NCBI GenBank assembly: GCA_021847425.1
Contig: JAJZRF010000035.1
Span: 1-34,383 of the forward strand
Direction: 5' to 3'
Length of the DNA: 34,383 bases
DNA from: Deltaproteobacteria bacterium
GTDB taxonomy: Bacteria > Desulfobacterota > Desulfobulbia > Desulfobulbales > Desulfurivibrionaceae
Numbering within the stretch: position 1 is the first letter of the stretch; the number at the start of each line of letters is the position of its first letter. Below are positions 2,631 to 18,938 of the stretch, piece by piece. The notes beneath the pieces are model-generated. The model saw only the letters and a program-made list of their open reading frames with translations, had not been told where the DNA came from and did not search any database. The position numbers were made by a program, and so were the translations under genes.

Positions 2631-4292
2631 GTGACTATTGTGCCGACCATCCCCGCGCGACAAAAATGGCTTTTTCGCGGCGCCGTGCTTCTGCTGGCTG
2701 CCACCATCGGCTCGCTTGGCTTTTACATCTTTTGCTCGTACCGGGCTTTTTTTAACTCCGACGCCGCCATTGCCAATATCCTGGCGGAGGAAATCGTCCG
2801 GGCCGGGGAGTTTTTTCCAAAAACCTGGTGGTATGTCAACAATGATCTCTGGGTGTTTTACAAGCATCTTCTGCTGATCCCCTGGGTCATGGCCGGACAA
2901 AACAGCTTCTTTGCCCACGGGGTTTCCGTTTTTCTGGTGGTTCTCGTTACCATGGCGGTGCTCGCTTTGCTGCTCAGGGCGCTGGGGCTGTCACGAACAG
3001 CGGCGGTGATGGGCTGCGTCGTCATCGGCTTGGGGTATTCCCCCATGTATCTGCGGGAGATTTACGGCGAGGCCGCCTACACCTGGTATTTTGCCTTTAT
3101 CCTCTCCTTCCTGCTCCTCTGGCTCCGGACAAACCGGCCGGATTCCGGCCGGTTTTCAAGGCTCGCCCTGTTTGCCCTTCTCCTCGTCCTTGTGTATCTG
3201 GTGGTGCTCGAGAATCCGGTGCGTTTTCTGGTTTACTACATCGCGCCCTTTGCCGGGGCCTTGCTGGTGCTGCTTTATACGGGGCGGGATGCCTTGCCCC
3301 GGGATGCAAAAGATGTCTGGCAGGCAGTTTCCCCCAGGATTGTTCCCGCCGCCGCCATTCTTGCGGCGCTCCTGCTGGGCGCCCTCTCCCACAGCCTGTT
3401 GTTTGCCGGGCTCCACCTTGCCGGAGGCGCCAACAATGCGCTGCTGATCCCGCTGCAGGGGCTGCCCTTTCATATCGCCTATTCGGTGCTCGGCCTGTTG
3501 AATTTTATCGGTACGGAGTGGCAGGACAAGGTGGTGCTGGCCTCGGGGGAGGGGGTGTTTTCCCTGCTGAAGCTGGGGCTCTATCCCGTGGCGCTGGTTC
3601 TCCCGGCCTGGTATGCCCGAAAAAATTTCCCCCGCCTGGAGCAACCGCAGCGGTATTTCCTGCTGCTCTCCTACCTTGGCTTTGCCCTGATCTTCTTTTT
3701 GTTCTCGGTGAGCAGTCTGCACGACGGAGCCTACGCCGCCCGCAACAACATCCGGTACATCATCCCCTATCTGATGATGATCCTGGTCTGCCCGGTGGTG
3801 ATGTGGCGGTTCTTTCCCCCGGTTGCCAAGGCGGTGCTGATCGTGGTCTTTTTGCTCGCCCTTGGCGGAACCTGGCGAAACATCTCGCCTGCGGGCTGGC
3901 AAGAGACCGCCCAGGCGCGGGCCGAGGTGGTCGCCACCCTCGAAAGCCGCGGCCTTGTTTACGGCTACGCCCCGTACTGGCATTCGCACGTCTATACCGT
4001 GCTGAGCAAGGGCGCGGTGCGCATCCGGCCCATTGATCTTGACTGGCGCGGGATCGGCCTGTGCCTGTGGCTCTCAAGCGACCGGTGGTACGAAAAGGGA
4101 TACGCCGGCGGCAGGGTGTTCTTTCTGGTGCCCGATAAAAAGCTCGACAATTGGAAGGCTGGCAGTGAAAAGCTTTCCCTGCCCAAGCCCGCCGAAACAT
4201 TTCCGCTGGGCAGCTACACGGTGTTTGTGTTTTCCGAAAATCCGCTCCCTGGGCTGCAGGAAAAAGGGCGCTTCTGTAAAGACAGCCGATGA
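2631..4292 (+). CDS. Polytopic membrane protein, probable lipid-linked-sugar glycosyltransferase
   Basis: A 553-residue inner-membrane protein with roughly ten to twelve hydrophobic helices, then a soluble C-terminal domain of about 130 residues (from about 430). The early segment after TM1 contains FFNSDAAIAN and a WWYVNN patch. Acidic residues just after TM1 are usual in GT-C glycosyltransferases (ArnT/PMT type), where an aspartate in the first periplasmic loop is catalytic. No specific family was recognised. The start is uncertain: I chose the GTG at 2631 over a TTG at 2586 because both lack a strong Shine-Dalgarno and the hydrophobic core begins near residue 15. It heads an operon with a polyprenyl-phosphate glycosyltransferase, WbqC, WecE and an ArnE-like protein, which supports a role as the periplasmic transferase. 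The function is inferred. Confidence 0.7.
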   Translation: MTIVPTIPARQKWLFRGAVLLLAATIGSLGFYIFCSYRAFFNSDAAIANILAEEIVRAGEFFPKTWWYVNNDLWVFYKHLLLIPWVMAGQNSFFAHGVSVFLVVLVTMAVLALLLRALGLSRTAAVMGCVVIGLGYSPMYLREIYGEAAYTWYFAFILSFLLLWLRTNRPDSGRFSRLALFALLLVLVYLVVLENPVRFLVYYIAPFAGALLVLLYTGRDALPRDAKDVWQAVSPRIVPAAAILAALLLGALSHSLLFAGLHLAGGANNALLIPLQGLPFHIAYSVLGLLNFIGTEWQDKVVLASGEGVFSLLKLGLYPVALVLPAWYARKNFPRLEQPQRYFLLLSYLGFALIFFLFSVSSLHDGAYAARNNIRYIIPYLMMILVCPVVMWRFFPPVAKAVLIVVFLLALGGTWRNISPAGWQETAQARAEVVATLESRGLVYGYAPYWHSHVYTVLSKGAVRIRPIDLDWRGIGLCLWLSSDRWYEKGYAGGRVFFLVPDKKLDNWKAGSEKLSLPKPAETFPLGSYTVFVFSENPLPGLQEKGRFCKDSR

Positions 4293-4347
4293 TCGCATTT
4301 TTTTGCCATCAGAACAGCAAGATATCTCAGCAACCAAGGAAAGATCC

Positions 4348-5307
4348 GTGACGAAGCATGTAACAATCAGCGTGGTATCCCCTGTGTATGGATGCAGGAC
4401 GTGCCTGGGAGAGCTCTGCAGAAGGGTGGCGGCAACGCTTGCGCCCATTACCGGCGACTTCGAGATTATTCTGGTCAATGACGCCTGCCCCCAAGGCTCA
4501 TGGGAGCAGATTCAGGCGCTTGCCCGCCAGGATTCCCGGATCAAGGGACTCAACCTCTCCCGCAATTTCGGCCAGCACTATGCCATTACCGCCGGACTCG
4601 ACCATGCCCGGGGCGATTGGGTGGTGGTGATGGACTGCGACCTGCAGGACAAACCCGAGGAGATCGCCAAGCTATATGCCAAGGCCATGGAGGGGTACGA
4701 CATCGTCTTCGGGCAAAGGGTGGAGCGGCAGGACAATTTTTTCAAAAAACTTGCCTCCCGGATGTTTTACCGGGTTTTGGAGTACTTTACCGATACCGAG
4801 CACGACAATACCATTGCCAATTTCGGCATCTTTTCGCACCAGGTGATCGAAAACGTGAATCGCTACCGGGAACAGAACCGCTCTTTCCCCCTGTTTGTCA
4901 AGATCGTCGGCTTCAAAAGAACGCAGATTCCCGTGGAGCACGATGACCGGCTGTACGGCAAATCGTCCTACAATTTTAAAAAAATGGTCAATCTTGCCAT
5001 CGACTCCATCGTGGCCCACTCCAACAAGCCGTTGCGGCTCTTTATCCAGCTGGGCTTCTTTATTTCCCTGGGCAGCATGCTGTACGCCTTCTGGCTGTTT
5101 TTGCGTTTTTTTCTCTACGGCGATGTCACGGAGGGCTGGACCAGCCTGATGGTTTCGATGTTTTTCATGTTCGGCCTGCTTTTCGGCATCCTGGGGATCC
5201 TGGGCTTGTATATCGGCAAGATCTTCGATGAGGCCAAGGGGAGGCCGCTTTACATCATCCAGGAAGCCATCAATCTCGATTCCGCCCACCAGGCGTCACA
5301 GCCATGA
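4348..5307 (+). CDS. GT2 polyprenyl-phosphate glycosyltransferase (ArnC/DPM1-like)
   Basis: A 319-residue family 2 glycosyltransferase. The N-terminal GT-A domain has SVVSPVYG (8-15), NDACPQGSW with D45, and the metal-binding stretch VVMDCDLQDKPEEI with D96 and D98. The region LYGKSSYNFKKM before the membrane part matches dolichol-phosphate-mannose synthase relatives such as ArnC and GtrB. Two C-terminal membrane helices (about 229-250 and 262-290) end in the GLYIGKIFDE motif. These enzymes move a sugar from a nucleotide donor to undecaprenyl phosphate at the cytoplasmic face. The GTG at 4348 was chosen because AAGGAAAGATCC precedes it and the domain begins there; the frame stays open further upstream. 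The stop overlaps the next gene as ATGA. The substrate is unknown, though WecE downstream suggests an amino-sugar. Confidence 0.88.
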   Translation: MTKHVTISVVSPVYGCRTCLGELCRRVAATLAPITGDFEIILVNDACPQGSWEQIQALARQDSRIKGLNLSRNFGQHYAITAGLDHARGDWVVVMDCDLQDKPEEIAKLYAKAMEGYDIVFGQRVERQDNFFKKLASRMFYRVLEYFTDTEHDNTIANFGIFSHQVIENVNRYREQNRSFPLFVKIVGFKRTQIPVEHDDRLYGKSSYNFKKMVNLAIDSIVAHSNKPLRLFIQLGFFISLGSMLYAFWLFLRFFLYGDVTEGWTSLMVSMFFMFGLLFGILGILGLYIGKIFDEAKGRPLYIIQEAINLDSAHQASQP

Positions 5308-5996
5308 AAAAAATAGCCATCCTCCAGTCCAACTATATCCCCTGGAAGGGATATTTCGATATCATCCGCAGCGTTGACGAGTTCGTGCTCTACGATGACA
5401 TGCAGTACACCAAGAACGACTGGCGCAACCGCAACAAGATCAAGACCAGGGAAGGCCTTGCGTGGCTTACTATTCCCGTGCGGGTGGAATCGCTGGCCCA
5501 GACGATCCGGGAGACCAGGATCAGCAACCCCCTCTGGCACAAGCAGCACTGGAAGACGCTTGCCCAGAACTATGCCAAAGCCGCGTATTTCAAGGAGTAC
5601 AAGGATGTTTTCGAGGAGCTGTATCTGAGCGCCACGGAGGATTTCTTGAGCGAGATAAACCGGAAGTTTCTGGTGGCTATCAATGCGATGCTGGGTATCA
5701 CCACCATCATCCGCTGCTCCAGTGAATTCACCCTGGCTCCGGGCAAAAGTGAACGGCTCCTGGAATTATGCCAGAAACTGGGGGGTACCACCTACTTGAG
5801 CGGACCTGCTGCCCGTGATTATCTCGATGTCCCGATCTTCACCGCAGCGGGGATAGAGGTCGAATGGATGGACTACGGCGGCTACCCGGAATACCCCCAG
5901 CTTTTCCCACCCTTTGCACACGGGGTGAGCATTGTGGACCTGCTGTTCAACGAGGGCAAGAACGCCATCAATTTCATGAAACGGATAGAGCGATGA
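5304..5996 (+). CDS. WbqC-like family protein
   Basis: A 230-residue soluble protein starting MKKIAILQSNYIPWKGYFD, with YDDMQYTKNDWRNRN and a GTTYLSGPAARDYL segment. These are the conserved patches of the WbqC family, which is found in O-antigen and other surface-glycan loci. The biochemical activity of the family is not settled; a role in modifying a nucleotide-sugar, for example N-acylation of an amino-sugar, is possible from context. The gene overlaps its neighbours on both sides by ATGA (5304-5307 and 5993-5996), so it is translationally coupled with the GT2 and WecE genes. Confidence 0.85.
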   Translation: MKKIAILQSNYIPWKGYFDIIRSVDEFVLYDDMQYTKNDWRNRNKIKTREGLAWLTIPVRVESLAQTIRETRISNPLWHKQHWKTLAQNYAKAAYFKEYKDVFEELYLSATEDFLSEINRKFLVAINAMLGITTIIRCSSEFTLAPGKSERLLELCQKLGGTTYLSGPAARDYLDVPIFTAAGIEVEWMDYGGYPEYPQLFPPFAHGVSIVDLLFNEGKNAINFMKRIER

Positions 5997-7129
5997 TCCC
6001 CTTCAACAAACCCCCGCACACCGGCAACGAAGAGCAGTACGTCCTTGCGGCGATGAAGAGCCCGCAGATCTCCGGGGATGGAGAGTTCGGTAAGCGCTGC
6101 CAGCGCTGGTTCGAAACAAAGCTTGGCTGCCGGAAGGCCCTGCTCACCCCCTCCTGCACCCATGCCCTGGAGATGGCGGCGATCCTCATCGGCATCGAGC
6201 CCGGCGATGAGGTGATCATGCCCAGCTATACCTTTGTCAGCACGGCCAACGCCTTTGCCCTGCGCGGGGCCCGCATCGTTTTCGTGGACATCCGGCCCGA
6301 CACGATGAACATCGACGAAACCCGGATCGAGGCGGCGATCACCCCGCAGACCAAGGCCATCGTTCCGGTGCATTATGCCGGGGTGGGGTGCGAGATGGAC
6401 GTGATCATGACCCTGGCCGAAAAATACTCCCTGTTTGTCATCGAGGATGCGGCCCAGGGCATGATGAGCCGCTACAAGGGCAGGCCGTTGGGCACCATCG
6501 GCCATCTCGGCGCCTACAGCTTTCACGAGACCAAGAACTACACCAGCGGCGGCGAGGGCGGGCTGCTGATCATCAATGACGGCCGCTTTGCCGAGCGGGC
6601 CGAGATCATCCGCGAAAAAGGGACCAACCGCAGCCAGTTTTTCCGCGGCATGGTGGACAAGTACAGCTGGGTGGACATCGGCAGCAGCTACCTGCCCTCC
6701 GAGCTCCAGGCCGCCTATCTCTGGGGACAGCTGGAGATGGCCGAGGCGATCAACAGCGACCGGCTGGCAAGCTGGCTGGCCTACCGCGACAAACTGGGTC
6801 CTCTTGCGGCGGCCGGGGTCGTCGAACTCCCGGTGGTCACGGAAACCTGCCAGCACAACGGGCACATGTTCTATATCAAGGTCAAGGATCTGGAGCAGCG
6901 CACCGCGCTGCTGGAACATTTCAAGCAGTACGTCATCTGGGCGGTGTTCCACTATGTGCCGCTGCACAGCGCTCCGGCCGGCTTGAAATACGGGCGCTTT
7001 TCCGGCAGGGATATCCACACCACCAGCCAGAGCGAACGGCTCATCCGGCTGCCCCTCTATTACGGTATAACCGGGGAAGAGATTGACACGGTCTGCGAAA
7101 AAATCACGGAATGGAGCGAGAAAAACTGA
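5993..7129 (+). CDS. wecE: dTDP-4-amino-4,6-dideoxygalactose transaminase
   Basis: A 378-residue DegT/DnrJ/EryC1-family PLP enzyme. It would transfer an amino group from glutamate to dTDP-4-keto-6-deoxy-D-glucose in the cytoplasm. The PLP lysine is K181 in SFHETKNYTSGGEGG, the same number and context as E. coli RffA/WecE. FVIEDAAQG (148-156) supplies the PLP-ring aspartate, and MPSYTFVSTANAF (76-88) is typical of the family. The ATG at 5993 overlaps the wbqC stop; the frame stays open upstream but without a domain. Its stop overlaps the next ATG as TGATG. It supplies the amino-sugar for the operon's presumed glycan modification. The glucose-1-phosphate thymidylyltransferase and dehydratase are not in this window. 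Confidence 0.92.
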   Translation: MIPFNKPPHTGNEEQYVLAAMKSPQISGDGEFGKRCQRWFETKLGCRKALLTPSCTHALEMAAILIGIEPGDEVIMPSYTFVSTANAFALRGARIVFVDIRPDTMNIDETRIEAAITPQTKAIVPVHYAGVGCEMDVIMTLAEKYSLFVIEDAAQGMMSRYKGRPLGTIGHLGAYSFHETKNYTSGGEGGLLIINDGRFAERAEIIREKGTNRSQFFRGMVDKYSWVDIGSSYLPSELQAAYLWGQLEMAEAINSDRLASWLAYRDKLGPLAAAGVVELPVVTETCQHNGHMFYIKVKDLEQRTALLEHFKQYVIWAVFHYVPLHSAPAGLKYGRFSGRDIHTTSQSERLIRLPLYYGITGEEIDTVCEKITEWSEKN

Positions 7130-9471: not shown

Positions 9472-9493
9472 GAAAAAATGGCTTAGAGAAGCC
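9472..9493 (-). terminator. Intrinsic terminator of the tsdA-bd operon
   Basis: On the minus strand GGCTT-CTCT-AAGCC (9493-9480) is followed by ATTTTTT (to 9473). It lies 10 bases after the TAG of the last subunit gene and is a plain rho-independent terminator. Confidence 0.75.
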
Positions 9494-9503
9494 CCCCTGT
9501 CAT

Positions 9504-11081
9504 CTACCGTTTACCACCCTGATCGCGTTTGGCAAAGACGATCTCGACCAGCCCCCACCGGACCCCTTCGGGGAGGTTGCCGAAGCTGGGCATCAGGGTG
9601 CCGTGGTAGCCGTTGCTGATCACCTCGAACATCTGGCGAGGCGTGAGACTGTAAACTGTAAAGTCGGGCACCGGCGGGCGGTAGTCCCGGGCCTGTTCCG
9701 TGCCCTTGCCGTCCATGCCGTGACACGGGGTGCAGCTCTGCGCATATTCCTGCCCGGCCTGCCTGCGGTCCGGTGCGGAAACGGCAACGGGAACAGGTTC
9801 CTGCTTTCCGAGCAGGTGATGGGTTGCGTTGAGATATTCGGCAAGGGCATCGAGCTTGTTCCGATCCAGGAAGCTGAAGTACGGCATGGCCGAGCCGGGA
9901 ACCCCGTCGGTGAGGATTTTGTGGAGATAGGGCGCGGTGGTCCGCACGGCGGCAAGGTTTTCCGGCCGCACCTCCATGTTTTTCGCCTCCGGGCCGGCGC
10001 CGTCCGCCAGCTCGCCATGGCAGAAGGCGCAGCTGTTCGCATAGATGGTGGCGCCGTTGTCATAGACGACATTGAGTTTTGCCTGATACCGCTCAAGACT
10101 TTCCTGGGCAAAAGCCCCGGTTTCCCGGCTGTGCGCCCGGGTTTTTTCCTGCAGTGACGCCGTGAGCGGCAGGTATGTCCGGTTCTGAATCAGCTGGCGG
10201 CCCAGCAACATCGAGACCAGGATGCACATCATCGCAAAAACGGTGAGGTGCAACGGGAGGGGAACCTCCCCCGTGTTGCCGAGGGTGAACAGGTACCAGA
10301 GAAAAAGGGCCGCGCCTGCCACCCCGGCAAAGAGGGCGAGATTGACCATCATCCCCGGCTTGTCCGGCAGCGAGGCATAGAGCAGGATGCCGAGGACCAT
10401 CTGCAGCAGGGTTCCGGCCACGAGAAGGCGCAGCAGTGATTTCCGGTCCTCCGTATCCTCAACGGCGAAAAAATAATGGAAGGCCGCGCCGAACATCACC
10501 GCACCCCCCAGGACATGCAGATACCGGAACAGCCAGTGAAGAGCCAACGGCCCGTTCAGCCGGTATCCTTGCCCGATAATGGCGATCCAGCCGGAGGGAT
10601 GCTCGGAAGCCGTCAGAATCAGGACGAAGATGCCCGGGACCGCCAACAGGGTGAGCAGGCCGATAGTCCCCAGAATCAGCGGGACAAGGCGGTTGCGGTC
10701 AAGGAAATGGGCCAGCAGGTCGAAGGCGAGAAAGGCCACGATGAGCAGGACAATGATGGCCAGCCAGTACGGGGCAAAGAGCGTGACACTGGTGAAGAAG
10801 GGAATGGTAAAGGCAACCTGGATCAGGAGCAAGGGGGCAACGCCCAAGACCACGGCAAGGCTTTTGTGGCTCATGAAGGCCTTGGCGATCCGGCCCGCCA
10901 GGCCAACGGCCTGGGGCTTGGTGCCCCAATGGCCGATCAGCAGGTAGGAGAAAGCAAGGATGGCCGTGCCGAGGGTAAACAGGGCAAAGAGCAGGTGCAG
11001 GGTGAAGGAGACAAAAAGAAGGCCCTGCAGCCATGGATCTGGCAAGGGTTTTTGCAGCAGGAGGTCAAAAAGGTTATTCAT
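9504..11081 (-). CDS. Cytochrome bd-like (CydA') subunit with two c-type heme domains
   Basis: A 525-residue inner-membrane protein with about eight or nine hydrophobic helices (to about residue 310), then two cytochrome c domains. Helix 1 reads TLHLLFALFTLGTA, which aligns by eye with MYHFLFVPLTLGMA of E. coli CydA, placing H29 on the heme ligand H19. RYLHVLGGAVMFGAAF resembles the region around CydA H186. Heme sites are CAFCH (351-355, possible Met ligand M399) and CTPCH (450-454, M497). The quinol-site motif GRQPW is absent. The ATG at 11081 has GGAGGG upstream and overlaps the preceding gene by 8 bases, so the subunits are coupled. Likely a CydA paralogue acting as the second subunit of a c-type-heme member of the bd superfamily. 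Oxygen reduction is inferred. Confidence 0.8.
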   Translation of the reverse strand: MNNLFDLLLQKPLPDPWLQGLLFVSFTLHLLFALFTLGTAILAFSYLLIGHWGTKPQAVGLAGRIAKAFMSHKSLAVVLGVAPLLLIQVAFTIPFFTSVTLFAPYWLAIIVLLIVAFLAFDLLAHFLDRNRLVPLILGTIGLLTLLAVPGIFVLILTASEHPSGWIAIIGQGYRLNGPLALHWLFRYLHVLGGAVMFGAAFHYFFAVEDTEDRKSLLRLLVAGTLLQMVLGILLYASLPDKPGMMVNLALFAGVAGAALFLWYLFTLGNTGEVPLPLHLTVFAMMCILVSMLLGRQLIQNRTYLPLTASLQEKTRAHSRETGAFAQESLERYQAKLNVVYDNGATIYANSCAFCHGELADGAGPEAKNMEVRPENLAAVRTTAPYLHKILTDGVPGSAMPYFSFLDRNKLDALAEYLNATHHLLGKQEPVPVAVSAPDRRQAGQEYAQSCTPCHGMDGKGTEQARDYRPPVPDFTVYSLTPRQMFEVISNGYHGTLMPSFGNLPEGVRWGLVEIVFAKRDQGGKR

Positions 11082-12441
11082 GTGCCGACCCTCCGTTGAG
11101 CGGGGTAAAGCGAGAGGGGGCGCCAAGTTTGATTGTGCCGTCCGCCAGGTGGAAGAGGAAGTCGGCCATGGTCCGCCGCTCCTGGTCAGTGCCTGAAAAA
11201 GGGGGCATGAAGGGCACCATTTCCTGGGTGTGCCCGAGGATGACGTAGATGCCGTCCGCTGTTCGGCCCTGCACCCGGGCAACGATATCGTTGATCCCGC
11301 CGACGGTGTGGCAGGCGGAACAGTTTTGGGCAAAGAGATAGGCGCCCTGGCCCACCGGATCGCCCTGCCTGGCGGTGGCGTTATACCAGGAGGAGCTGGG
11401 GAGCATGCCTTTCCTGGCAAAGAGGGGCGTTTCTTCAAGGAGCACCTGATTGGCATACATATAGCCGGGCATCAGATACGGGCCGCGGATAAACTCCCGC
11501 ACCCGCTCAAACTGGGCCACGAAAAGAACGGCGACAATAATCGTCGGAACCACAAGGATCCGGACGGAGGTGACGGATTTGCGCAGGGCCGCAAGCCAGA
11601 AAAGCAGCAGAAAAACCGCGCCGCCGATGGTGATCCCCCAAAACAGCTCGGGCTGCTGGGAAAAGCGGGAAGTCATGACCGCATAGAGCGAATGGGTCTT
11701 GAATGCGGAAGGGACCACCTCGAAATACCAGACACCGCTGAGAAGTGTGATTGTAAGGCTGAAAAGGGCAAGTTTAGCGAAAAAAGCAAGACCCTCCTTG
11801 CGAAAATCCGGCGCGCGTCTGGTAAAAACAAGGTAACCGACGGAAAAGAGGGTTCCCAGGGAATAGGCGATGCCGAGGCGCAGGACAAGCTGCGGCAGGT
11901 AGCTGACATTGAAGAAGGCAGACCAGAGGCTCTTGTCCCATGGCCAGCCGTCCGGGGTGAGCATGAAGCCGAGAATGCCGGTGATCAGCAGAGCCGAGCA
12001 GAGGGCCGCCGCCACATAGCCGAGGCCGAGCCGGAGGTGGTGTTTTTTCCTCTCCCCGGTCCAGCTCTGCCAGGTGTAGTAGTAAATAAGGACGATGACC
12101 ACCTCGGCGGTGAAAACACCCCATTCAATAAACCAGGGCCAGAAAAAAACCCTGAGCAGCGAGCCGATCCCGCGCGGCGCCAGAGCGCTGGTGATGAGCC
12201 AGATGCCGACTCCGGTTACGGCGCCGACGCTGGTGGTCAAAAAAACGATAACCCGGAGAAAATCCCTGGCAAAGCATTCCCAGTCCCGGGATGCCCGGCG
12301 CTGCCCGAGATATTCACTGGCCACCACCATGGAAACCGCGCCGATGGCCAGGCCGTGGCTGATGACGACATGCAGCACGGCATCAAGCGCAATGGTCATG
12401 CCGTTGCCCAGGTAGGGAACCTGAAAGATTGGAAACTCCAT
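11074..12441 (-). CDS. Cytochrome bd-like subunit I (CydA family) with C-terminal cytochrome c domain
   Basis: A 455-residue inner-membrane protein with about nine hydrophobic helices and a C-terminal monoheme cytochrome c domain. Helix 1 contains LHVVISHGLAIG; H24 aligns with the heme ligand H19 of E. coli CydA. FIEWGVFTAEVV keeps two glutamates in the helix that holds E99 and E107 in CydA. The stretch aligned with H186 (LPQLVLRLGIAYSLG) has no histidine, and GRQPW is absent. After the last helix comes GPYLMPGYMY, then CSACH (374-378) with Met candidates M408 and M412. AAGGAG precedes the ATG. The layout fits the cytochrome-c-containing (OR-C) families of the bd superfamily. It lies 15 bases after tsdA and overlaps the next subunit. 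Confidence 0.85.
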   Translation of the reverse strand: MEFPIFQVPYLGNGMTIALDAVLHVVISHGLAIGAVSMVVASEYLGQRRASRDWECFARDFLRVIVFLTTSVGAVTGVGIWLITSALAPRGIGSLLRVFFWPWFIEWGVFTAEVVIVLIYYYTWQSWTGERKKHHLRLGLGYVAAALCSALLITGILGFMLTPDGWPWDKSLWSAFFNVSYLPQLVLRLGIAYSLGTLFSVGYLVFTRRAPDFRKEGLAFFAKLALFSLTITLLSGVWYFEVVPSAFKTHSLYAVMTSRFSQQPELFWGITIGGAVFLLLFWLAALRKSVTSVRILVVPTIIVAVLFVAQFERVREFIRGPYLMPGYMYANQVLLEETPLFARKGMLPSSSWYNATARQGDPVGQGAYLFAQNCSACHTVGGINDIVARVQGRTADGIYVILGHTQEMVPFMPPFSGTDQERRTMADFLFHLADGTIKLGAPSRFTPLNGGSAHE

Positions 12442-12456
12442 GCTCTGCGCTCCTTG

Positions 12457-13326
12457 TTATTGCTTGTTGCTGAAATGCGGCCGGGGCTGGGCGGCAACAT
12501 ATTCCGCCACGTCAAGGGCATCCTCCACGGAAAGATCCGGGTTGCCCAGCGGCATGTTGGCGTGGGCAAAGGCCGCAAGGTTTGCCGGCTTATGCATGCC
12601 TGCCCCATCGTTGAAGGAGGTGTCGCCCCACACAGCAGGAGCCGCGCTGGTGCCTTCGCCGTTCTTCCCGTGGCAGACACCGCATTTGGCGTCAAAGACC
12701 TGCCCGCCCTTACCCTTGTCCGGGGCATGGGTAGTCTTGAGATGCGGCAGGCCCAGCCAGGGTATTTCCGCGTACACCGGCAAGCCCTTCGATATCCACT
12801 GGTAGTAAGTGACAATGGCGGTCATTTCCTTGCTTTCTTCAGGCAAGGGGCGGCCGTTCATGCTTCTTTTGAAGCAGTCATTGGTGCGGGTTACCAGGTC
12901 AACGGCATAATCCTGCCGTTTGCGGTATTGGGGATAGGAGGCCCCCACCCCCACCAGCGACAGGCCGCCGTTTTTCCCGCCCTGGGTGAGACCGGCCTTG
13001 AAGTGGCAATTGGTGCAGGAGAGCTTGTTGCCCACATACTGGGAGGCGTATTTGCCGGTCTCCGTCATGATGTTGGCGCCGAGCAGCACCGCTTCCCTGA
13101 TGGACGCCGGGGCATCCTGGGGCGATGGGGGGGCGTAGGTGACCGCCGCTGTCGTCGCCGGTTGGGGGGCGGCCGACGGAAGGACGGTTTTTTGCGGCCC
13201 CGGTATCGAGTCTCCCCCGCCGCCGGCGAGATTGATGAACCTGCTGAAAAAGAGCGACAGGCCGGCGCCGACAATGGTGATGGCGACGGTGGTGACCAGA
13301 ACAAATGTCAGTTTGTTATTTTTCAT
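12457..13326 (-). CDS. tsdA: Diheme thiosulfate dehydrogenase, TsdA type
   Basis: A 289-residue periplasmic diheme cytochrome with an N-terminal membrane anchor or signal (about 6-28) and a Pro/Ala-rich linker. Heme 1 site is CTNCH (104-108); C151 lies 43 residues after H108 in DCFKRSMNG, the same spacing as the axial His53/Cys96 pair described for Allochromatium TsdA. Heme 2 site is CGVCH (215-219) with NMPLG (N257, M258), suggesting His/Met ligation as in the Campylobacter enzyme. TsdA joins two thiosulfates to tetrathionate and releases two electrons; some members run in reverse. It is first in an operon with two heme-c bd-like subunits, which are the evident electron acceptor. AGGTGAAAG precedes the ATG. 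SoxA-like function is less likely. Confidence 0.85.
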   Translation of the reverse strand: MKNNKLTFVLVTTVAITIVGAGLSLFFSRFINLAGGGGDSIPGPQKTVLPSAAPQPATTAAVTYAPPSPQDAPASIREAVLLGANIMTETGKYASQYVGNKLSCTNCHFKAGLTQGGKNGGLSLVGVGASYPQYRKRQDYAVDLVTRTNDCFKRSMNGRPLPEESKEMTAIVTYYQWISKGLPVYAEIPWLGLPHLKTTHAPDKGKGGQVFDAKCGVCHGKNGEGTSAAPAVWGDTSFNDGAGMHKPANLAAFAHANMPLGNPDLSVEDALDVAEYVAAQPRPHFSNKQ

Positions 13327-13792: not shown

Positions 13793-15124
13793 ATGGGGGA
13801 TCAGTTCTTGAGGGCTCGCGATCTTTTGCAGTCTGCTTACAGCGACCGTAACCGGCAATTGCTGCAGTTGCTTACCCTGGCCGCCGTGGTGGGCGTGTGC
13901 GGCGCCTTTGCGGTGCTTGCCTTCCGCTGGCTTCTGGTTTTCGCCGAAACAGGTCTTTACGGCTCGAAGCTTGGGCTGGTGGCAGACGCCAGCGGGCTTC
14001 CGCCTTTGCTGCGCACCCTTTCCCCTGCCGCAGGCGGACTCCTGGCAGGGCTGATCCTGGAATATCTTGTGGAGAGAAGGAAGGGCAAGGGTGGCGCCGA
14101 CTACATGGAAGCAATATTTGCCGGGGGTGAAATGCCTGTTGCCGGTTCGCTTTTAAAGTCGTCCGCCTCGGCTACCTCGGTGGTTTCCGGCGGCTCCATA
14201 GGCCGAGAAGGATCAATGGTACAGCTTGCCGCACTTACGGGATCCGTCATTTCCAATTGGCTTCGGCTGCCTCCCGATAGACGCCAGGTTCTGATCGCGT
14301 GCGGCGCCGCCGCAGGTGTCGCCGGCGCTTACAATACGCCCATCGCCGGGTCGCTCTTTGTCGCGGAGATCGTGCTCGGAAGCATCACCGTGAGCAATCT
14401 GGCCCAGCTTCTCCTGGCTTCCGCGATCGCTGACCTGGTAGTGCGCCAGATTACGCATGTCGGGCCGATTTATGCGACAAACCCTGGCGTGCTTTCCACG
14501 GCGCCGGAATTAATCCTTGTCGTCCTCCTTGGGGCCGGCATAGGAGTGCTCGGGGCTTTCTTTGTCGGTCTTCTGGGTCGCACACATGCCATGTTTCGAT
14601 CCTTGCCCATGCCGCTTTGGGTGAAAATGGCGGCGGCGGGCCTCATTGTGGGCGCGCTTTCGACTGTACGCCCGGAGGTCTGGGGCAACGGCTATTCCGT
14701 GATCAACTCACTGCTCCACACCCCCCACGCCTGGGAGGTGGTGCTCCTTATCTTTCTCCTGAAGACGACCGCAACCATTCTCACCACTGGTTCAGGCGCG
14801 GTGGGAGGCGTGTTTACGCCGACGCTTTTTATCGGTGCGGCACTTGGGAGCCTTGGCGGCGGCGGGATTCACCTGATTCTGCCAAATGCCTCGGAAAATG
14901 CCTATGCGCTTGTCGGCATGGGCGCCTTCCTTGCGGCTGTTACCCACGCCCCGCTTACGGCAGTGGTGATGGTGAGCGAAATGACCTTTGGTTTTACGCT
15001 GGTGCCGGCACTTACCCTTGGGTGCCTAAGCGGTTATTACATCTCTTCGTTGCTCCATCCAACCTCGGTCTACGCCCACGCCAAACCGCCGACACATCCG
15101 ACAGAGCATCTTGAGTTCGGATAG
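13793..15124 (+). CDS. ClC-family chloride (anion) transporter
   Basis: A 443-residue polytopic ClC protein. It has the gating glutamate E139 in GREGS (137-141), usually GREGP, and GGVFTP (338-343), the anion-coordinating GxFxP motif. The first motif GSGIP is not evident; the aligned region reads KGGADYMEAI. In LFVAEIVLG the position of the internal proton glutamate of E. coli ClC (E203) is isoleucine, so coupling to protons may be altered and channel-like behaviour is possible. There is no CBS domain. The ATG at 13793 lacks a good Shine-Dalgarno, so the start is moderately uncertain. Its position between two sulfur-oxidation clusters may be chance or may relate to charge or anion balance. 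Confidence 0.88.
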   Translation: MGDQFLRARDLLQSAYSDRNRQLLQLLTLAAVVGVCGAFAVLAFRWLLVFAETGLYGSKLGLVADASGLPPLLRTLSPAAGGLLAGLILEYLVERRKGKGGADYMEAIFAGGEMPVAGSLLKSSASATSVVSGGSIGREGSMVQLAALTGSVISNWLRLPPDRRQVLIACGAAAGVAGAYNTPIAGSLFVAEIVLGSITVSNLAQLLLASAIADLVVRQITHVGPIYATNPGVLSTAPELILVVLLGAGIGVLGAFFVGLLGRTHAMFRSLPMPLWVKMAAAGLIVGALSTVRPEVWGNGYSVINSLLHTPHAWEVVLLIFLLKTTATILTTGSGAVGGVFTPTLFIGAALGSLGGGGIHLILPNASENAYALVGMGAFLAAVTHAPLTAVVMVSEMTFGFTLVPALTLGCLSGYYISSLLHPTSVYAHAKPPTHPTEHLEFG

Positions 15125-15233: not shown

Positions 15234-16682
15234 ATGAAAAGCGGAAAAGCCCTTTCAATAGTTCAGCTGAACGACAGCCATGCCTATTTTGATTTGCACC
15301 AGGAGATGTTCTGGCAGGGCGGCCATGCAGTGTACCGCCTGGCGGGAGGATATGCGCGCATCGCCACGATTGTAAAACAGATTCGGGCGGAGAGCCGGGG
15401 GAGTGTTCTTTTCTGTGATTGCGGCGATACCATCCACGGCACCTATCCGGCCTTGGCCACACAGGGAAAGGCCTTAATCCCGGTCTTGAATTCGTTGGGG
15501 CTTGATGCCATGACCGCGCACTGGGAATTTGCCTATGGTCCAAAGGTGTTTCAGCAGCGGGTTGCCGAGCTTGATTATCCGATGCTGGCAAACAACGTCT
15601 ATGATAAAGAGAGCAAAAAACCGCTCTATCCGCCGTATGCCGTAAAGGAGATCGGCGGTTTACGGATCGGCGTGGCGGGGATAGCCTCGAACATTGTGGA
15701 TAAGACGATGCCGCCTTCTTACAGCGAAGGCATCTTCTTCACCCTGGGCAGGGACGAACTGCCGCTTATTGTCGATATCTTACGTGCCCAGGAAAAGGTC
15801 GACCTGGTGGTGCTGGTCTCCCACCTCGGGTTCCCGCAGGAGATGAAGCTGTTGTCCGAGGTGCGGGGCATAGATGTCTGTCTCAGCGGCCATACCCATA
15901 ACCGGTTGTATCAGCCGGTGCTGAACGGGAAAACCATAGTCATCCAGTCAGGTTGCCATGGTTCTTTCTTGGGGCGCCTTGATCTGGAGGTGGAAAAAGG
16001 AGAGGTTGCCCGCTACAGCCACCGATTGATCGAGGTGGAAGCCGCCATGCAACCGGACCCCGCGGTGGATGAACTGATAAGCGAGGCGCTTGCTCCCTAT
16101 AAGCATGACCTCTCGGAGGTTGTCGGCGAAACCGCCACCGCGCTCAACCGGGGGACAACCCTGGAAGCCACCATGGATAATTTTCTCCTCCAGGCGTTGC
16201 TTGAAACCACCGGGGCACAGCTGGCCTTTTCAAATGGCTGGCGTTACGGCGCCCCGATAATTCCCGGGAAGATAACCTTGAACGACCTGTATAACATCAT
16301 TCCCATGAATCCGCCGATCTCAACGGTGGAGCTGACAGGAGAGGAGCTCCAGCTGATGCTGGAGGAGAATCTTGAACGGACATTTTCCTGCGATCCCTAT
16401 CAGCAGATGGGAGGATATGTCAAACGCGGCCTTGGTCTTACCGTGTACTTCAAGATAGAGAATCCACCGGGCCAGCGGGTTCAAAAAATATTTATCGGCA
16501 ACGACGAGGTGCAGTCAGGCCGATACTATCCCGCGGCATTCGTAACCCCGCAGGGAGTCCCCCCGAAATATGGCCGCAATCGTGAAAACCGGCCCGAACG
16601 CATCATAGATGCCATGCGAATCTATCTGGCTGCGCATCGTCCCGTTCACGCGGAACTCAGGGGCACTTTTGTGGCGGTATAG
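15234..16682 (+). CDS. SoxB/UshA-family metallophosphoesterase without signal peptide
   Basis: A 482-residue two-domain enzyme. The N-terminal calcineurin-like domain has LNDSHAYFD (D14, H16), CDCGDTIHG (D65), TAHWEFAYG (H96), VSHLGF and SGHTHNR, all metal-ligand motifs. The C-terminal 5'-nucleotidase domain starts near 280 (ETATALNRGTT) and has FSNGWRYGAPIIPGKIT. The HWEF(A/T)YG form, instead of the usual GNHEFD, is seen in SoxB thiosulfohydrolases, which release sulfate from a thiosulfonate on SoxYZ. Unlike SoxB, this protein begins directly with the domain and has no Tat or Sec signal. No soxYZ is nearby. It is therefore either a cytoplasmic SoxB relative or a nucleotidase. AAGG lies 10 bases before the ATG. 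Confidence 0.75.
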   Translation: MKSGKALSIVQLNDSHAYFDLHQEMFWQGGHAVYRLAGGYARIATIVKQIRAESRGSVLFCDCGDTIHGTYPALATQGKALIPVLNSLGLDAMTAHWEFAYGPKVFQQRVAELDYPMLANNVYDKESKKPLYPPYAVKEIGGLRIGVAGIASNIVDKTMPPSYSEGIFFTLGRDELPLIVDILRAQEKVDLVVLVSHLGFPQEMKLLSEVRGIDVCLSGHTHNRLYQPVLNGKTIVIQSGCHGSFLGRLDLEVEKGEVARYSHRLIEVEAAMQPDPAVDELISEALAPYKHDLSEVVGETATALNRGTTLEATMDNFLLQALLETTGAQLAFSNGWRYGAPIIPGKITLNDLYNIIPMNPPISTVELTGEELQLMLEENLERTFSCDPYQQMGGYVKRGLGLTVYFKIENPPGQRVQKIFIGNDEVQSGRYYPAAFVTPQGVPPKYGRNRENRPERIIDAMRIYLAAHRPVHAELRGTFVAV

Positions 16683-16741: not shown

Positions 16742-16795
16742 ACGATTGAAAATAAACGATACGGCATGGGTCATCATCCAAAAAGGAGAACTGAA

Positions 16796-17241
16796 ATGGC
16801 AGGAAACAAATGGGCGCAGATTTTCTTTGTCGCGATGCTGGTTGTAGGTTTCGGGGCGGAGCGATCCATGTCGGCCGCTGAAAACAAAGAGATCAAGGCC
16901 GCAGACGCTATCCATATTGATATTCCCGTGGTGCTCAAGGAAGCGAATGTCGTGTTCAACATGGACCATCTGGCGTTTGCCGGTGATTTGCCAGTCGGTA
17001 TCAACTATACCTTGAATGACAAAACCTATAATGCGTATCGCCATGTCAGCCCCGGCAACCCCTATAAAGATCGTATCGCCGAATTGCTCAAGCAGGGGGT
17101 GCAGATAGAGGAATGCGCGGTCTCCATGAGAGGCCCAAATGGGTCAATGAAGACCTGCTGCCGGGCGTGAAGGTGAACTCCGGAGCAGTGGGCCGCCTGA
17201 TTCAATTGATCCAGGAAGGGTACGTACAGATGCAGCCGTAG
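16796..17241 (+). pseudogene. Periplasmic DsrE-family protein, frameshifted near the C-terminus
   Basis: The ATG at 16796 has AAGGAG upstream and opens a frame with a signal peptide (hydrophobic core about 8-20, then SMSAAEN) and a DsrE/F-like domain: VVFNMDHLAFAG, then GVQIEECAVSM with the cysteine at the position of the family's sulfur-binding residue. That frame ends at 17168 with an aberrant GPNGSMKTCCRA. From 17137 the frame shifted by one encodes KWVNEDLLPGVKVNSGAVGR and a normal DsrE-like tail to the TAG at 17241. One base seems lost in or near CCCAAA (17134-17139). The intact protein would be about 148 residues and might carry persulfide sulfur in the periplasm. This is either a true mutation or a sequence error in a short homopolymer pair. 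Confidence 0.8.
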
Positions 17242-17320: not shown

Positions 17321-17394
17321 ATTTTCCGCTCGTCTTTGCCGCAAGGAGGTAACGCCGGTACTTTTCTTACACAATCCTATTGAAGGAGGGGTCC

Positions 17395-18585
17395 ATGAAG
17401 AGTAGATTTCTTTCACGTCGGGATTTCCTAAAGACCGCAAGTTCCATTGGCATGGTGACCGCTTTGGGGGGGATACCTGTCGATCTTTTTGCCAGTGAGG
17501 GGAAATTGGTCCGTTTCCCGGAAAAGACGGACTTGATCCTCCTCACCTCGCGACCGCCGCAGCTGGAAACGCCCAAACATTTTTTCAAGGAGCTGATCAC
17601 CCCCAACGAGGCCCTCTTTGTCCGTTGGCATATCGCCAACATCCCCACCTCGGTTGATCTGCGGACCTGGCGGATCAAGATCGGCGGCAACACCGAGCGG
17701 TCGTTTGAGCTTTCCATGGACGACCTGAAAGCACTTCCCAAGGTTACCTATACCGCGGTCATCCAGTGCGCCGGCAATGGCCGCGGCCTTTTTAATCCGC
17801 GGGTTCCCGGCGGGCAGTGGGGCAACGGCGCCATGGGCAACGTCACCTGGGGCGGCGTTCGCTTGAAGGACATCCTGGCCAAGGCCGGAGTCAAGGGCGA
17901 TTCGGTGGAGGTGTCCTTTAACGGCCTCGATTCCGGGCCGCTTCCCACCGTGCCTGACCTGGTCAAGGCGCTGCCCGTGGACAAGGCCCTGGAGGAAGAC
18001 AACATCATCGCCTACGAGATGAACGGCAAACAGCTGACCATGCTCAACGGCTTTCCAGCTCGATTGGTAGTGCCGGGCTGGTATGCATCATACTGGGTAA
18101 AGGCGCTCAGCGATGTGACCGTGCTGTCGAAACCGCTGGAAACCTTCTGGATGAATCCGGCCTACCGCATCCCGGCCAATCCCTGTGCCTGCGTTCCCCC
18201 CGGCACAACGCCCGGCAAGAGTGTGCCCATCAACCGGATGAATACCCGTTCGCTCATCATCGAACCCTCCCAGGGCAACCGTTTGCCAATGGGCAAGGAG
18301 GTGACCATCTCCGGCCTCGCCTTCTCCGGCGGCTACGGCATCAAGGATGTCATTGTTTCGGTGGATGGCGGCAAGACTTGGAAGGAGGCCAGATTGGGCA
18401 AGGATCTCGGCAAGTATTCCTGGGTCTTGTGGTCGCTGCCCTGGAAGCCGCCGCAGAAAGGAAAATATACCCTGATGGCCCGGGCGACCGACAGCATCGG
18501 CGAGTCCCAGCCTCTTGACAGTCTGTGGAACCCGGCCGGCTACATGCGGAATAATATCGAAAAAGTCGACGTCACCGTCGGATAG
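17395..18585 (+). CDS. sorA: Sulfite dehydrogenase, molybdopterin subunit (SorA type)
   Basis: A 396-residue sulfite oxidase-family protein that would oxidise sulfite to sulfate in the periplasm and pass electrons to cytochrome c. It has a Tat signal (SRRDFLK, then a hydrophobic stretch). The molybdenum-ligating cysteine is C125 in VIQCAGNGRG, followed by WGGVRLKDILAKAG. The Moco domain spans about 55-270. The C-terminal dimerisation domain starts near 280 and has ISGLAFSGGYGIKDVIVSVDGG and W-rich stretches typical of the family. AAGGAGGGG lies before the ATG at 17395. Two c-type cytochromes follow at 8 and 24 bases, as expected for SorAB. A YedY-like reductase is less likely because the dimerisation domain is present. 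Confidence 0.9.
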   Translation: MKSRFLSRRDFLKTASSIGMVTALGGIPVDLFASEGKLVRFPEKTDLILLTSRPPQLETPKHFFKELITPNEALFVRWHIANIPTSVDLRTWRIKIGGNTERSFELSMDDLKALPKVTYTAVIQCAGNGRGLFNPRVPGGQWGNGAMGNVTWGGVRLKDILAKAGVKGDSVEVSFNGLDSGPLPTVPDLVKALPVDKALEEDNIIAYEMNGKQLTMLNGFPARLVVPGWYASYWVKALSDVTVLSKPLETFWMNPAYRIPANPCACVPPGTTPGKSVPINRMNTRSLIIEPSQGNRLPMGKEVTISGLAFSGGYGIKDVIVSVDGGKTWKEARLGKDLGKYSWVLWSLPWKPPQKGKYTLMARATDSIGESQPLDSLWNPAGYMRNNIEKVDVTVG

Positions 18586-18593
18586 GAGGGGAT

Positions 18594-18938
18594 ATGAAAA
18601 AAATTATCGTATTCGCCACGTTGGCATCGGCTACCGCGTTCCTGGTTCAGCATCCTGCCCCGATGGCGCAGGCCGAGGAAACGGGGACTGTTCATTCGAT
18701 CACCCTGCCGACGATTCCGCCCCACTTGAAAGAGGGCGCCGGCAAAGACAAGGTGATGACCTTGTGTGCCATCTGTCACACCCCCGATTACATTCCCATG
18801 CAGCCCCGCTTGCCCGCGAAAACCTGGGAGGGCGAAGTCCACAAGATGATCAAGGTGTTTGGCGCGCCGATCAACGAGGAGGACGCCAAGACCATCAGCA
18901 GCTATCTTGCCGCACAATACGGGACCGGCGAGAAATAA
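18594..18938 (+). CDS. sorB: Monoheme cytochrome c, SorB-like sulfite dehydrogenase subunit
   Basis: A 114-residue exported cytochrome with a signal peptide (about 1-27, cleavage after AQA). The single heme site is CAICH (about 58-62). Methionine candidates for the sixth ligand are in YIPMQP and HKMIKVFG. The short helical C-terminus (EEDAKTISSYLAAQYG) is typical of small cytochromes c. It starts 8 bases after sorA with AGGAGGGG upstream, so it is almost certainly co-translated and should accept electrons from the SorA molybdenum centre. The name rests on context and size, because SorB sequences vary. Confidence 0.8.
   Translation: MKKIIVFATLASATAFLVQHPAPMAQAEETGTVHSITLPTIPPHLKEGAGKDKVMTLCAICHTPDYIPMQPRLPAKTWEGEVHKMIKVFGAPINEEDAKTISSYLAAQYGTGEK

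Follow-up and report, generated by a model that had tools for sequence, protein, structure and literature searches.

A contig of 34,383 nucleotides from a Deltaproteobacteria bacterium of the family Desulfurivibrionaceae (JAJZRF010000035.1, assembly GCA_021847425.1; the whole contig is called the window below) carries on its minus strand a gene for a thiosulfate dehydrogenase, tsdA, followed by two genes for paralogous membrane proteins of the cytochrome bd superfamily, cydA and cydA'. A gap of 15 base pairs separates tsdA from cydA, and cydA overlaps cydA' by 8. Five c-type heme sites (CXXCH motifs) are spread over the trio, two in TsdA, one in CydA and two in CydA'. The trio is conserved as one unit and likely encodes a single membrane thiosulfate:oxygen oxidoreductase complex that works without quinol, a reading to which we assign a probability of about two in three. 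A preliminary description of this DNA had proposed just such a self-contained enzyme bypassing quinol, and the proposal is supported by the linkage of tsdA, the residues of CydA and the placement of the clade in a tree. The electron donor of bd-superfamily members that lack a quinol site is an open question; the operon of this clade names a likely donor, which is hence testable. If the reading is correct, relatives of sulfate reducers could consume oxygen with thiosulfate while bypassing the quinone pool, using an oxygen reductase that relies on neither quinol nor a heme-copper centre.

Linkage to tsdA is conserved in related genomes. A single, non-exhaustive scan of 84,980 species genomes with two peptide patterns gave 57 loci, 34 of which encode a close CydA, defined as at least 42% identical to that of the window. 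In 30 of the 34, tsdA is the next upstream gene on the same strand, 26 times at full length and four times in part (internally deleted in L009, cut by the contig end in L014 and L022, frame-broken in L017). L020 is counted as full-length; its TsdA copy is degenerate and is preceded by a further TsdA-like domain. A cydA' match follows in 32 of the 34 close loci, the contig ending first in L018 and L021. The fetched stretches around the 23 more distant loci contain no tsdA match (0/23). Two further samples, of the phylum and of the order, overlap with the 57 loci. A CydA match is present in 26 of 148 phylum genomes, and tsdA stands beside all five close ones (5/5); in the order, 114 of 193 genomes have a match, and in the tsdA check, which covered 30 loci from these 114, all nine close ones are linked (9/9). 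The window's own genome is included in both counts. The other fetched loci of the two samples (20 and 21, respectively), at about 27-34% identity, show no tsdA match in flanks of up to 1.5 kilobases. Judged by record titles, the linked hosts include several Desulfobacterota groups, Nitrospirae, a Planctomycetota, a Bacteroidetes and a Methanoperedens bin, and the unlinked ones include Zixibacteria, Nitrospirae, Bdellovibrionales and Cyanobacteria bins (bins can be mixed). Desulfogranum japonicum DSM 18378 (L024) is a cultured carrier.

Pairwise identities of TsdA, CydA and CydA' over 25 loci are closely correlated (Pearson r 0.90-0.95; L009, L015, L017, L020, L022, L059, L060 and loci without all three proteins were left out). 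Such correlated divergence would be expected if the three proteins travelled together, and shared descent contributes to it. A chance neighbourhood of the three genes is rejected by the conservation of the linkage. Misassembly or contamination was also rejected, because another genome of the same genus (G366) has the whole trio and a second one (G360) has its start, with tsdA followed by as much of cydA as its contig holds.

Neither membrane subunit is matched by the Pfam and NCBIfam models of bd subunits, and their identification therefore rests on PDB sequence matches, profiles, folds and the tree; the CydA fold is found in the predicted models of the membrane subunits. Residues were counted in all 87 frames that score above 300 bits against the CydA profile, whatever their motif (37 close and 50 distant, two of the latter being partial, one a tail piece and one stopping early). 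H24, E106 and E113 of CydA are retained in 37/37 close and 49/49 distant heme-c frames, and E316 and R319 in 37/37 close frames and in the 48/48 distant frames that reach that far. In the alignments these five residues correspond to His19, Glu99, Glu107, Glu445 and the Arg of GRQPW in the E. coli numbering. Residues for the high-spin heme pair that reduces oxygen (H24, E106, E113 and E316) are therefore present in CydA, whereas those of the quinol side are gone. According to PMC8951039, heme b558 of bd oxidases has a His and a Met as ligands, quinol is bound by a Glu and a Lys that are conserved in the Q-loop, and the high-spin hemes rely on a His and a Glu. The b558 His column holds His in 18/18 quinol-type rows and other residues in 86/86 heme-c CydA frames; the same 86/86 have no residue in the columns of the Q-loop Lys and Glu. 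The b558 Met column likewise holds other residues in 37/37 close and 48/49 distant frames; it is poorly aligned and shifts with the alignment, and loss of the Met ligand is less certain than that of the His. Where quinol oxidases have AExGRQPW, CydA has REFIRGPY, which bears out, for this subunit, the earlier remark that GRQPW is missing. The pattern RE..R.P[YF] is missing from 8 of the 87 frames, six of which have Trp, His or Cys in the last place (L022 included) and two of which are pieces that do not cover it. The heme-c domain begins soon after REFIRGPY in the chain, and, going by the predicted model, the c heme of CydA would sit on the periplasmic side, close to where oxygen is reduced. 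Met412 of CydA, invariant in 82 sequences, and Met399 and Met497 of CydA', invariant in 17, are candidates for the sixth ligand at the c hemes.

CydA, which is without the b558 His, the Q-loop Lys and Glu and the GRQPW of quinol oxidases, also falls into a separate clade. In a tree of 125 rows and 332 columns (quick method, SH-aLRT support only; L017, L021 and L022 left out), both subunits lie outside the quinol-oxidising clade: 75 heme-c CydAs form one clade (SH-aLRT 99), 18 quinol-type (qOR) CydAs another (100) and 11 Nitrospirota frames with neither heme-c motif nor GRQPW a third (81), and 21 CydA' rows are separate from all of these (100), the tree tool having flagged some CydA' and other rows as long-branched. 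Within the heme-c clade, 32 tsdA-linked and three unlinked rows make up a clade of 35 (99), and the fourth unlinked row, L034, joins the tsdA-linked clade at 89. Only frames that have GRQPW or GRHPW were admitted as qOR rows, 3 of the 18 being shortened and without the Glu445 column; the quinol-type profile, whose building set held some non-CydA frames, was used to pre-select frames only.

The OR-C family is defined by a heme-c domain on the CydA subunit. Murali et al. are said to have described it in 2021 as a family of the cytochrome bd superfamily. The window CydA carries such a domain and is without the quinol-site residues; the assignment of the clade to OR-C goes by these features, the tree containing no labelled OR-C reference. 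OR-C is in use as a family name in the accessible passages of PMC13189123, PMC10839748 and PMC11707229; these and PMC12342949 are the sources of the names OR-C, OR-N and qOR. Two Nitrospirota loci, L135 (584-1810 and 1853-3175) and L136, encode CydA-like pairs with neither heme-c motif nor GRQPW that branch apart from long Nitrospirota forms. Related heme-c CydAs of about 850-890 amino acids have a fused tail and eight CXXCH in total, and stand beside a CydA' of about 350-415 amino acids without c hemes (L036-L039, L042, L043, L045, L069, L070, L072, L076 and L142); no tsdA match lies nearby in the fetched loci. The order and the genus of the window often have frames about as long, many of the order genomes being judged by length only.

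TsdA of the window matches the solved structures of A. vinosum TsdA (PDB 4wqc and 4v2k) at an E-value of about 1e-41 and has two matched domains, SoxA/TsdA-type PF21342 and a second cytochrome c domain, PF00034. Equivalents of Arg109, Arg119, Cys123, Ser127 and Gly221 (A. vinosum precursor numbering) are retained, and Lys replaces Arg224; the set includes the Cys heme ligand, the invariant Arg and the TsdA-specific Ser. Arg119 is invariant across TsdA and SoxA, and Ser127 is invariant in TsdA and absent from SoxA, as far as the available part of PMC4423706 goes. Among 28 linked TsdAs, the window's counted in, 25 have the R119, C123 and S127 equivalents intact. The active site of the window TsdA is intact, but the direction of the reaction is not readable from the sequence; thiosulfate oxidation is its predicted function. 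A single hydrophobic segment starts at residue 9 (mean hydropathy 2.25) and is, going by hydropathy, a likely membrane anchor. The gene is the one TsdA-family member in its own genome. Elsewhere, the TsdA-like genes of two operons (L029, 810-1670; L030, 347-1309) retain the Cys and both CXXCH while the substrate-binding Arg, Ser and Gly are replaced, a possible case of natural conversion of an enzyme into an electron relay. In L020, a frame of 1152 amino acids (2721-6179) with five CXXCH and a TsdA-like C-terminal domain lies directly before the degenerate TsdA copy and the cydA pair.

H29, H189, M291 and R295 of CydA' are among the residues invariant in 43/43 aligned sequences. In an hhalign comparison with quinol-type CydA (probability 90), H29 falls at His19 and H189 at the b558 His. 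Identification of H189 with the b558 His was dropped; the register is unsure, as an alignment of CydA' with CydA sets R186 on CydA R188, about one helix turn off. The window CydA' has no Glu at the Glu445 place before GRQ (LLGRQ). Given this and its invariant His and Met residues, CydA' may hold the b-type relay heme that was lost from CydA, which is offered as an idea only. The loop predicted between helices six and seven has about 7 residues (237-243) and would be too short for a Q-loop. A fuller picture would be a five-c-heme TsdA-CydA-CydA' complex that reduces oxygen with thiosulfate, with the oxygen site on CydA and a b-type relay heme on CydA' (H29, H189, M291), so that the three heme sites of classical bd would be split between two CydA paralogues, and with a spread among sulfate-reducer relatives, Nitrospirota and others. 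We hold this picture tentatively, at a little under even odds.

In the proposed mechanism, membrane-anchored TsdA would oxidise thiosulfate to tetrathionate at heme 1, and electrons would pass, in steps that are all putative, over heme 2 and then over the c hemes carried by CydA' and CydA until they reach the pair of high-spin hemes in CydA. Oxygen would be reduced there with cytoplasmic protons delivered through the E106/E113 side, which would make this a charge-separating step; the expected sum is 4 S2O3(2-) + O2 + 4 H+ -> 2 S4O6(2-) + 2 H2O. The tetrathionate might later be used by the SoxB-like and SorAB-like products of neighbouring genes. The potential of menaquinone lies far below that of the thiosulfate/tetrathionate couple; the couple is too high for menaquinone, and a bypass of quinol would therefore be expected. 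PMC9562282 puts the couple near +198 mV.

Several observations weigh against this reading. The gene tsdA is missing beside close CydA in 4 of the 34 loci (L015, L019, L028 and L034). The unit is sporadic, with the close type in 3 of 17 same-genus genomes, and is therefore accessory. Of 26 carrier genomes, 9 have the SoxB-like gene (at least 79% identity in 6 of the 9), and L002-L006 are without it. TsdA enzymes work in both directions, and Asn-Met at heme 2 of the window enzyme is like the tetrathionate-reducing C. jejuni enzyme and unlike the Lys-Met of A. vinosum. The linked TsdAs of L029 and L030 are without the R109, R119, S127 and G221 equivalents though the operon persists, and the copy adjoining cydA in L020 is degenerate too; this subunit may merely relay electrons in some hosts. 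The window's own genome has one bc-type cytochrome b domain match (34.5 bits, cut-off 27), so quinol electrons could also reach the oxidase through cytochrome c.

The last two points also favour a general cytochrome c:oxygen reductase, in which the TsdA-like protein would be only a docking diheme fed from cytochrome c in the periplasm, which could be reduced by SorAB, for instance, or by quinol via a bc-type complex, and thiosulfate turnover would be incidental; the distant heme-c CydA pairs without TsdA nearby and the SorB-like cytochrome gene close to the trio are in keeping with it. However, Arg119, Cys123 and Ser127 would be needless for mere relay and are kept in most linked TsdAs, and in four loci a SoxB-like gene directly adjoins the trio; we consider such a reductase unlikely, though less so than the other alternatives. 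That TsdA instead acts as a tetrathionate reductase, co-transcribed with the oxygen reductase for oxidised conditions so that one cytochrome pool has two alternative sinks, seems improbable. In its favour is the residue pair at heme 2: the Met is strictly conserved in TsdA and the residue before it is variable, Lys in A. vinosum and Asn in C. jejuni, whose enzyme (Asn254-Met255) is biased towards tetrathionate reduction, as stated in the accessible sections of PMC5146829. Sulfate-reducer relatives are among the hosts by record titles, and the window's own genome has dsrA. But the Asn to Lys swap did not reverse the bias of the C. jejuni enzyme (same source), so that residue alone cannot tell direction, and separate sinks would not need co-inheritance of all three proteins. 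In the 28 linked TsdAs, the window's included, this residue is Asn in 16, Phe in 12 and Lys in none.

It is very improbable that the CydA pair still oxidises quinol at some other quinone site while its c hemes form a side branch. The M. tuberculosis enzyme does have a menaquinone site near heme b595 (PMC8951039, in its accessible text), but the b558 His and the Q-loop pair are gone throughout the heme-c CydAs, GRQPW is altered, the subunits are placed outside the qOR clade, and a separate canonical CydA is encoded in the same genome. An acceptor other than oxygen, such as nitric oxide, is harder still to credit: the accessible literature contained no assay of any enzyme from this branch, which leaves room for another small oxidant, but CydA retains the residues of its oxygen-reducing heme pair.

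The reading of a quinol-independent thiosulfate:oxygen oxidoreductase can be set beside several known systems. With the OR-C family the trio shares the CydA fold, the heme-c domain on CydA, the conserved oxygen-site residues and the absent quinol site; a difference is that in the tsdA-linked clade the second subunit bears two c hemes and a TsdA gene is inherited along with the pair. With TsdA and TsdBA (PDB 4v2k, and 5lo9, which we take to be the TsdBA fusion) it shares a diheme enzyme with a Cys-ligated heme 1 and the active-site Arg and Ser, but the neighbour in the window is an oxygen-reductase pair instead of the cytochrome TsdB, an N-terminal anchor is likely, and Asn, not Lys, precedes the heme 2 Met. 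Canonical bd (qOR, CydAB) is similar in fold and in the residues of the high-spin heme site, whereas the window CydA is without the Q-loop residues, the b558 His and GRQPW and is paired with a heme-c CydA paralogue instead of CydB. The OR-N CydAA' of Nitrospirota and Nitrospinota also has two CydA paralogues, no quinol site and cytochrome c as presumed donor (PMC12342949 and PMC10839748, in part), but it branches separately, and the heme-c motif is absent from the 11 OR-N-like frames, which were labelled by features and not by a reference sequence. PMC10839748 states that OR-N enzymes likely use cytochrome c and that this still awaits confirmation, and no tested electron donor for OR-C was met in the accessible literature. 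Nor did a literature search, whose range ended short of subscription papers and the founding OR-C paper, return a description of tsdA linked to cytochrome bd or CydA genes. What would be new is the combination of an OR-C-like bd pair and a likely electron donor inherited together with it.

Coordinates of the trio, its motifs and the context genes are collected in the Table. Those given for the trio in the preliminary description, and its 15-base gap and 8-base overlap, match exactly, and its counts of CXXCH (one in CydA, two in CydA') are confirmed by the motif positions. The genes are only adjacent, not fused as its wording "fused by operon" would suggest, and the shared terminator it named is only weakly matched, by a stem with a T-run. 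AAGGAG precedes the start of cydA and GGAGG that of cydA', both Shine-Dalgarno-like.

Table. Features of the tsdA-cydA-cydA' trio and its surroundings in the window
Feature	Position	Strand	Remarks
tsdA	12457..13326	-	289 amino acids; diheme thiosulfate dehydrogenase / tetrathionate reductase type; PF21342 + PF00034
TsdA heme 1 CXXCH, residues 104-108	13003..13017	-	
TsdA Cys151, equivalent of A. vinosum Cys123	12874..12876	-	Putative heme 1 ligand/catalytic residue, by alignment; role from accessible parts of PMC4423706 and PMC5146829
TsdA heme 2 CXXCH, residues 215-219	12670..12684	-	Sixth-ligand position is Asn257-Met258
cydA-like (OR-C type)	11074..12441	-	455 amino acids; 8 predicted transmembrane helices + c-type heme domain; predicted O2-reducing subunit
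CydA REFIRGPY, residues 315-322, replacing AExGRQPW	11476..11499	-	Glu316 is the b595 ligand Glu
CydA CXXCH, residues 374-378	11308..11322	-	PF13442
cydA'-like	9504..11081	-	525 amino acids; CydA-fold membrane part + two c-type heme domains
CydA' first CXXCH, residues 351-355	10017..10031	-	
CydA' second CXXCH, residues 450-454	9720..9734	-	
Weak terminator-like stem + T-run 3' of cydA'	9480..9493	-	Comparable sites about 2x commoner in the region than in shuffles
SoxB-like hydrolase, context gene	15234..16682	+	TIGR04486, 346 bits, below cut-off 550
sorA-like sulfite dehydrogenase molybdenum subunit, context gene	17380..18585	+	NF052245, 518 bits vs cut-off 600; PF00174, PF03404
sorB-like c-type cytochrome of sulfite dehydrogenase, context gene	18594..18938	+	NF052246, 85 bits vs cut-off 93

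Divergent from tsdA lie genes for a ClcB-like channel (13793-15124), the SoxB-like protein, an unnamed small protein and the SorA-like and SorB-like proteins. SoxB is the best-scoring NCBIfam family for the SoxB-like protein, yet the score stays below the cut-off of the SoxB equivalog. Seven of 34 loci (the window included, L021 not among the 34) have a member of the SoxB-like cluster close to the trio; it starts where cydA' ends, with an overlap, in L007, L008, L010 and L014, the copies in L010 and L014 being cut by the contig end, and the L029 member resembles an ordinary 5'-nucleotidase. In Erythrobacter flavus, according to passages of PMC7608252, tetrathionate is formed by TsdA and then broken down by SoxB, which releases sulfate. 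By analogy, this order of steps may serve as a model for the TsdA and SoxB-like pair in the window; a difference is that those passages name no oxidase as part of the pathway and that the window protein scores below the SoxB cut-off.

The window's own genome, which is 81% complete, has dsrA, one canonical CydA elsewhere and no match to COX1. COX1 is above the cut-off in 12 of the 26 carrier genomes, weak in one and without a match in 13, the window's own among them. In those 13, several of which are bins and maybe incomplete, the CydA pair is the only candidate found for a cytochrome c-fed oxygen reductase.

The small protein between the SoxB-like and SorA-like genes (16766-17170) has relatives around the trio in L012 and L013; a DsrE-like identity was dropped, as it has no Pfam or NCBIfam match. 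Proteins of about 640 amino acids with four CXXCH are also encoded near the trio in L016 (4563-6524), L025 (10579-12510) and L027 (10618-12528), and consist of a MauG/cytochrome-c-peroxidase-type part and a SoxA/TsdA-type part in L025 and L016, L027 being included by similarity only.

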